From positions 1 to 31,991 of the IMG/VR virus record IMGVR_UViG_3300025327_000115: a stretch of 31,991 nt of DNA; one strand, written 5' to 3'. The translations under genes and the position numbers were made by a program. This document shows positions 13,264 through 13,441 of this stretch, in pieces. Each line of letters starts with the position of its first letter. Within the stretch, counting starts at the first letter, position 1. The DNA comes from a virus. The notes beneath the pieces were generated by a model, which saw nothing but the letters and a program-made list of their open reading frames with translations, was not told the origin of the DNA and did no database searches.

Positions 13264-13441
13264 AGAGACTGTGTGACCGCGATTACAGCCAGCACTTCAC
13301 GCGACGGGGTATCCCGCTTCTTGGTGAGAGCCAATGTGAGCACGGTCGCACCCCACATTCAGCGGACGCTGCCACTGGCGACCTAGCAATCAGTATCGGC
13401 AGCGGTTGGTACGCCCTCACTGGTTTCCCGACACAGTCTCT
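13264..13441 (-). ncRNA. Candidate structured RNA with pseudoknot
   Basis: On the minus strand a 178-nt segment can fold as follows. P1 is an 11-bp perfect closing stem (13431-13441 with 13264-13274, AGAGACTGTGT). P2 is 8 bp (13413-13420 with 13324-13331) with one G-U pair. P3 is a 7-bp hairpin (13398-13404 with 13367-13373) continued by P3a of 4 bp (13391-13394 with 13374-13377). A 6-bp pseudoknot joins the P3a loop (13378-13383, GGTCGC) to 13344-13349 (GCGACC). A small hairpin lies at 13305-13316. The G-U pair would be an A-C mismatch on the plus strand, so the minus strand is favoured. No long frame with a ribosome site crosses it. I do not recognise the family. Confidence 0.5.

Follow-up and report, generated by a model that had tools for sequence, protein, structure and literature searches.

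A strongly folding segment beside the terminase gene of a phage structural operon is absent from close relatives and may be a MITE-like insertion

Closely related phages differ in whether a segment of about 235 bp separates the terminase large subunit gene (terL) from the next gene of the structural operon. In the window, by which we mean the whole stretch of 31,991 nucleotides analysed here (IMG/VR record IMGVR_UViG_3300025327_000115), this segment lies at 13242-13477 on the minus strand and is predicted to fold as a closed multi-branched structure, while three relatives with the same genes lack it entirely. Judged from this sequence comparison, it is most simply a lineage-specific insertion rather than a conserved component of the packaging module. 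There is, in our estimation, about an even chance that it represents foreign, probably non-coding DNA that was inserted once in this phage lineage, i.e. a passenger resembling miniature inverted-repeat elements (MITEs) in form.

The terL open reading frame (13602-15116, minus strand) carries a nuclease domain (PF20441 TerL_nuclease, E 5.5e-07) and matches the PHROGs terminase families phrog_9 and phrog_2. It is followed by a spacer of ~125 nt (13478-13601, minus strand) that starts with a G+C-rich hairpin and is common to all four phages, with 95% identity to the relative L002 and ~74% to L003. The spacer is apparently non-coding, yet conserved in all relatives, and may be a terminator or a leader; its first hairpin has a single compensatory A-U/G-C pair, with two cells broken. 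Beyond the segment follows a small ORF with CxxC motifs (12779-13243, minus strand; possible zinc ribbon), 94-95% conserved in the relatives, whose ATG sits at the right edge of the insertion. The 358-nt gap between these two ORFs, described in the initial annotation, is indeed there, as is the gene overlap that makes it conspicuous: the small ORF overlaps its downstream neighbour, and genes downstream of the gap overlap as well. This neighbour (10918-12786, minus strand) is conserved in the relatives and is a probable portal gene by position only, as the sequence has no family match in Pfam or PHROGs and its structure model is unusable (mean pLDDT 32). Directly after it, a subtilase (PF00082, E 7.6e-57) with a fervidolysin-like prodomain is encoded at 9453-10916, the expected place of a capsid-maturation protease. 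Tandem repeats of 30/60/120 bp occur elsewhere in the window, at 5346-5644 and 6036-6210, in an ORF (5036-6535) matching tail fibre families.

Relatives were found in IMG/VR with a single-sequence terminase query, which returned three contigs (L002, L003 and L004) with 92-93% identical TerL. A terminase alignment query, as well as searches with the small ORF or the presumed portal, led to the same three contigs in IMG/VR; the alignment query had no match in GTDB contigs, and tblastn with the terminase gave two weak Streptomyces phage matches. All three relatives keep the order terL, ~125-nt spacer, small ORF and portal, and all three lack ~235 nt including the whole structure. Their empty site reads CGTTGTAC followed immediately by GATAC (GTTGTAC, then GATAC, in each contig), the small ORF starts at once, and both flanks are conserved. 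In terms of BLAST coverage, the insert is the only unmatched stretch within the aligned terL-portal block. Its ends can be placed to within ~10 bases, with most of this uncertainty on the 13242 side, since the phages also diverge there in the first codons of the small ORF.

As L003 and L004 have the same terL sequence, the empty sites represent two independent lineages. DNA identities of terL are 85.6% between the window and L002, 84.2% between the window and L003, and 81.7% between L002 and L003. Since the window is closer to both L002 and L003 than these are to one another, a single gain in its lineage would be simpler than two losses. Conversely, the segment might be ancestral, with losses in the remaining lineages, or assembly or replacement might have produced the difference as an artefact. 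Such a scenario draws on the small comparison, i.e. four contigs of mosaic genomes with inexact boundaries and no true outgroup, but we regard it as very unlikely given two independent empty lineages with intact flanks and a window that is not the most distant of the three.

The segment has a striking predicted fold. The perfect 11-bp stem reported in the initial annotation, formed by AGAGACTGTGT (13431-13441) and ACACAGTCTCT (13264-13274), is real and runs further outward, giving an imperfect inverted repeat of 22 pairs over 13453-13431/13274-13252 with a mean pair probability of 0.97. From the outside inwards, this closing stem consists of a U-A pair, GG/CC, a bulged A (13450, in the 5' arm at 13431-13453), UCUAGAG/CUCUGGA, a G-U pair, an unpaired base (13262, in the 3' arm at 13252-13274) and then the 11 bp. 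The closed fold that it bounds (13252-13453, minus strand) contains the 8-bp helix that had been proposed and further hairpins. None of 200 shuffles of 13251-13453 was as stable (z -4.41), and in a coarse scan of 397 minus-strand windows of the genome, with 12 shuffles each, only one scored lower. That strongest-folding window (1281-1517) lies inside the ORF 1035-2945. When the segment was shuffled 400 times, perfect inverted repeats of at least 11 bp arose twice; 11-bp inverted repeats within 300 nt are, however, present at about six different sites of the 32-kb window, which makes the 11 bp weak evidence by themselves. Pairing as strong as that between the two end regions of the insertion occurred in 11 of 2000 shuffles.

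Other details of the proposed fold fared less well. The 6-bp pseudoknot (GGUCGC from 13383 with GCGACC from 13349) does not stand out, since the segment contains ten six-base complementarities vs 4.2 in shuffles, and its strands compete for bases of the more stable helix CGUACC/GGUGCG. Rather than a single G-U pair, we counted 13 among 74 predicted pairs, two of them in the closing stem. The two U-G pairs of the closing stem are possible only on the minus strand, and over 236 nt the minus strand folds better against shuffles (z -3.9) than the plus strand (z -2.3).

A fold with a z-score of -4.4, stronger on the operon strand and placed directly before a start codon, could belong to a functional, phage-specific structured RNA that was recently acquired and acts through its closed multi-branched shape, either as a cis-regulatory leader of the small ORF or in trans. 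We consider this unlikely, as the segment is absent from all three relatives with the same genes and has no sigma-70-like promoter or intrinsic terminator of its own. Nor does it match any Rfam family at gathering or permissive thresholds, with nothing at E 10 within 241 nt, and a covariance model built from the single sequence found only itself. Compensatory changes in homologous gaps had been proposed as a test, but these gaps are without the segment and covariation therefore cannot support a structured RNA. A working RNA is possible but unsupported, and a role as cis-regulatory leader could arise only secondarily, from the landing site immediately before the next ORF's start codon.

The initial annotation had also drawn an analogy to the packaging RNA of phi29, in which complementary right- and left-hand loops assemble a ring, with a three-way junction (PMC12670572). 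The likeness extends to size, to ends closed by a 5'/3' helix and to the neighbourhood of packaging genes. A packaging RNA should, however, accompany its packaging motor, and relatives with a near-identical terminase, the spacer and the gene order are entirely without the segment; the phi29 analogy is consequently not supported. The terminase here carries a nuclease domain, and the Rfam result covers packaging RNAs as well, so that a segment working like phi29 pRNA is hardly credible. Structured RNAs in mobile DNA insertions, such as the HEARO/IscB omega RNA and group I/II introns, offered another comparison and were rejected, as none of them appeared over the segment in the same Rfam search at E 10. 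Furthermore, no reverse transcriptase (RVT_1) was found in the window, and no nuclease of HEARO/IscB or intron systems among the genes scanned. An apparent likeness of AGAGACU and CGGGAAACC to motifs of group I introns was dropped for their wrong order and the lack of Rfam support.

The main rival to an inserted passenger is a decayed moron, i.e. a small protein gene that was gained between operon genes and broken by stops, with the fold being incidental. Gains of small genes at operon junctions do occur in this phage group: an ORF of ~75 aa separates the small CxxC ORF from the portal in L002 (7118-7350) but not in the window, L003 or L004, and L004 is without a 64-aa gene of the window (18530-18724, plus strand). 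In the window, this 64-aa ORF is followed by a strong G+C-rich hairpin and is flanked by direct repeats of GGAGCTTCCGATGA at 18520 and 18782, while L004 has a single copy, as if the ORF had been gained or lost via recombination between repeated ribosome-binding-site/start sequences. A minus-strand frame through the insert has phage-like codon usage save for two stops (p 0.0015 to 0.008 vs shuffles), but this signal is weak because the conserved non-coding spacer scores similarly (p 0.01). No protein homologue was found: frames of the insert have no match in Pfam, one in PHROGs only at E 0.07, none of significance in tblastn (best E 0.5) and no relative in IMG/VR. Decay of a protein gene would also leave the closing stem near the edges of the insert unexplained. 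On balance, we rate it as a real but rather unlikely alternative.

Of the options named in the initial annotation, the scar of a mobile RNA agrees best with a segment that behaves like a discrete insertion, although there is no sign that what moved was an RNA. The passenger reading that we prefer finds its closest parallel in prokaryotic MITEs, which are shorter than 500 bp, have inverted repeats of ~4-30 bp and give transcripts with stable stem-loops, e.g. QMITE2 of Coxiella burnetii with inverted repeats of 23-29 bp (PMC10969869). Likewise, the insert is short (~235 bp), intergenic and apparently non-coding, its frames without a family match and hence without a transposase, with a 22-pair inverted repeat near its ends and a predicted stable stem-loop transcript. 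In contrast to MITEs, it is a single copy, it is not AT-rich (54% G+C) and its inverted repeats are not exactly terminal but sit 24 nt and ~10 nt in from the apparent ends of the insertion. A target-site duplication, which MITEs may lose with age, is absent at the stem ends; close to the edges of the insertion a single 5-bp direct repeat, AATGA, occurs, and its size is that expected by chance. No transposase or IS element with the inverted repeat of the segment was found, and no second copy is present in the window, the records of the relatives, or phage or plasmid records. We therefore do not claim membership in a MITE family, given that target-site duplication, second copy and parent element are all missing from the sequences covered.

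Similarity searches proper, with blastn against phage and plasmid records, gave nothing meaningful for the segment. Word scans returned no relative of the insert in IMG/VR (degenerate words, three reading frames) or in GTDB contigs (one frame), nor did the exact inverted-repeat pair occur in IMG/VR; these scans use few exact or degenerate words, have low sensitivity and would see very similar copies only, by our estimate missing those below roughly 90% identity. The insert could represent a hitherto undescribed phage family of small, mobile structured RNAs whose fold itself acts in mobility or in regulating the host operon; this seems quite improbable on this evidence.

If the segment is an inserted passenger, it would have landed at the 3' end of the conserved spacer that separates terL from the small ORF, either mobilised in trans, with the transposase encoded elsewhere, or by illegitimate recombination. 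Its place after the terminase gene would break nothing, and the insert would be tolerated there and not needed for packaging. Being inside the operon, it would form part of the terL-to-portal transcript and provide the small ORF with a folded leader, in which a stable stem just upstream of the start codon might perhaps shift translation. The case also carries a caution, as a striking fold beside packaging genes resembled a packaging RNA until close relatives showed the empty site. Should further copies be found, the segment would exemplify small non-coding passenger elements carried within phage structural operons.
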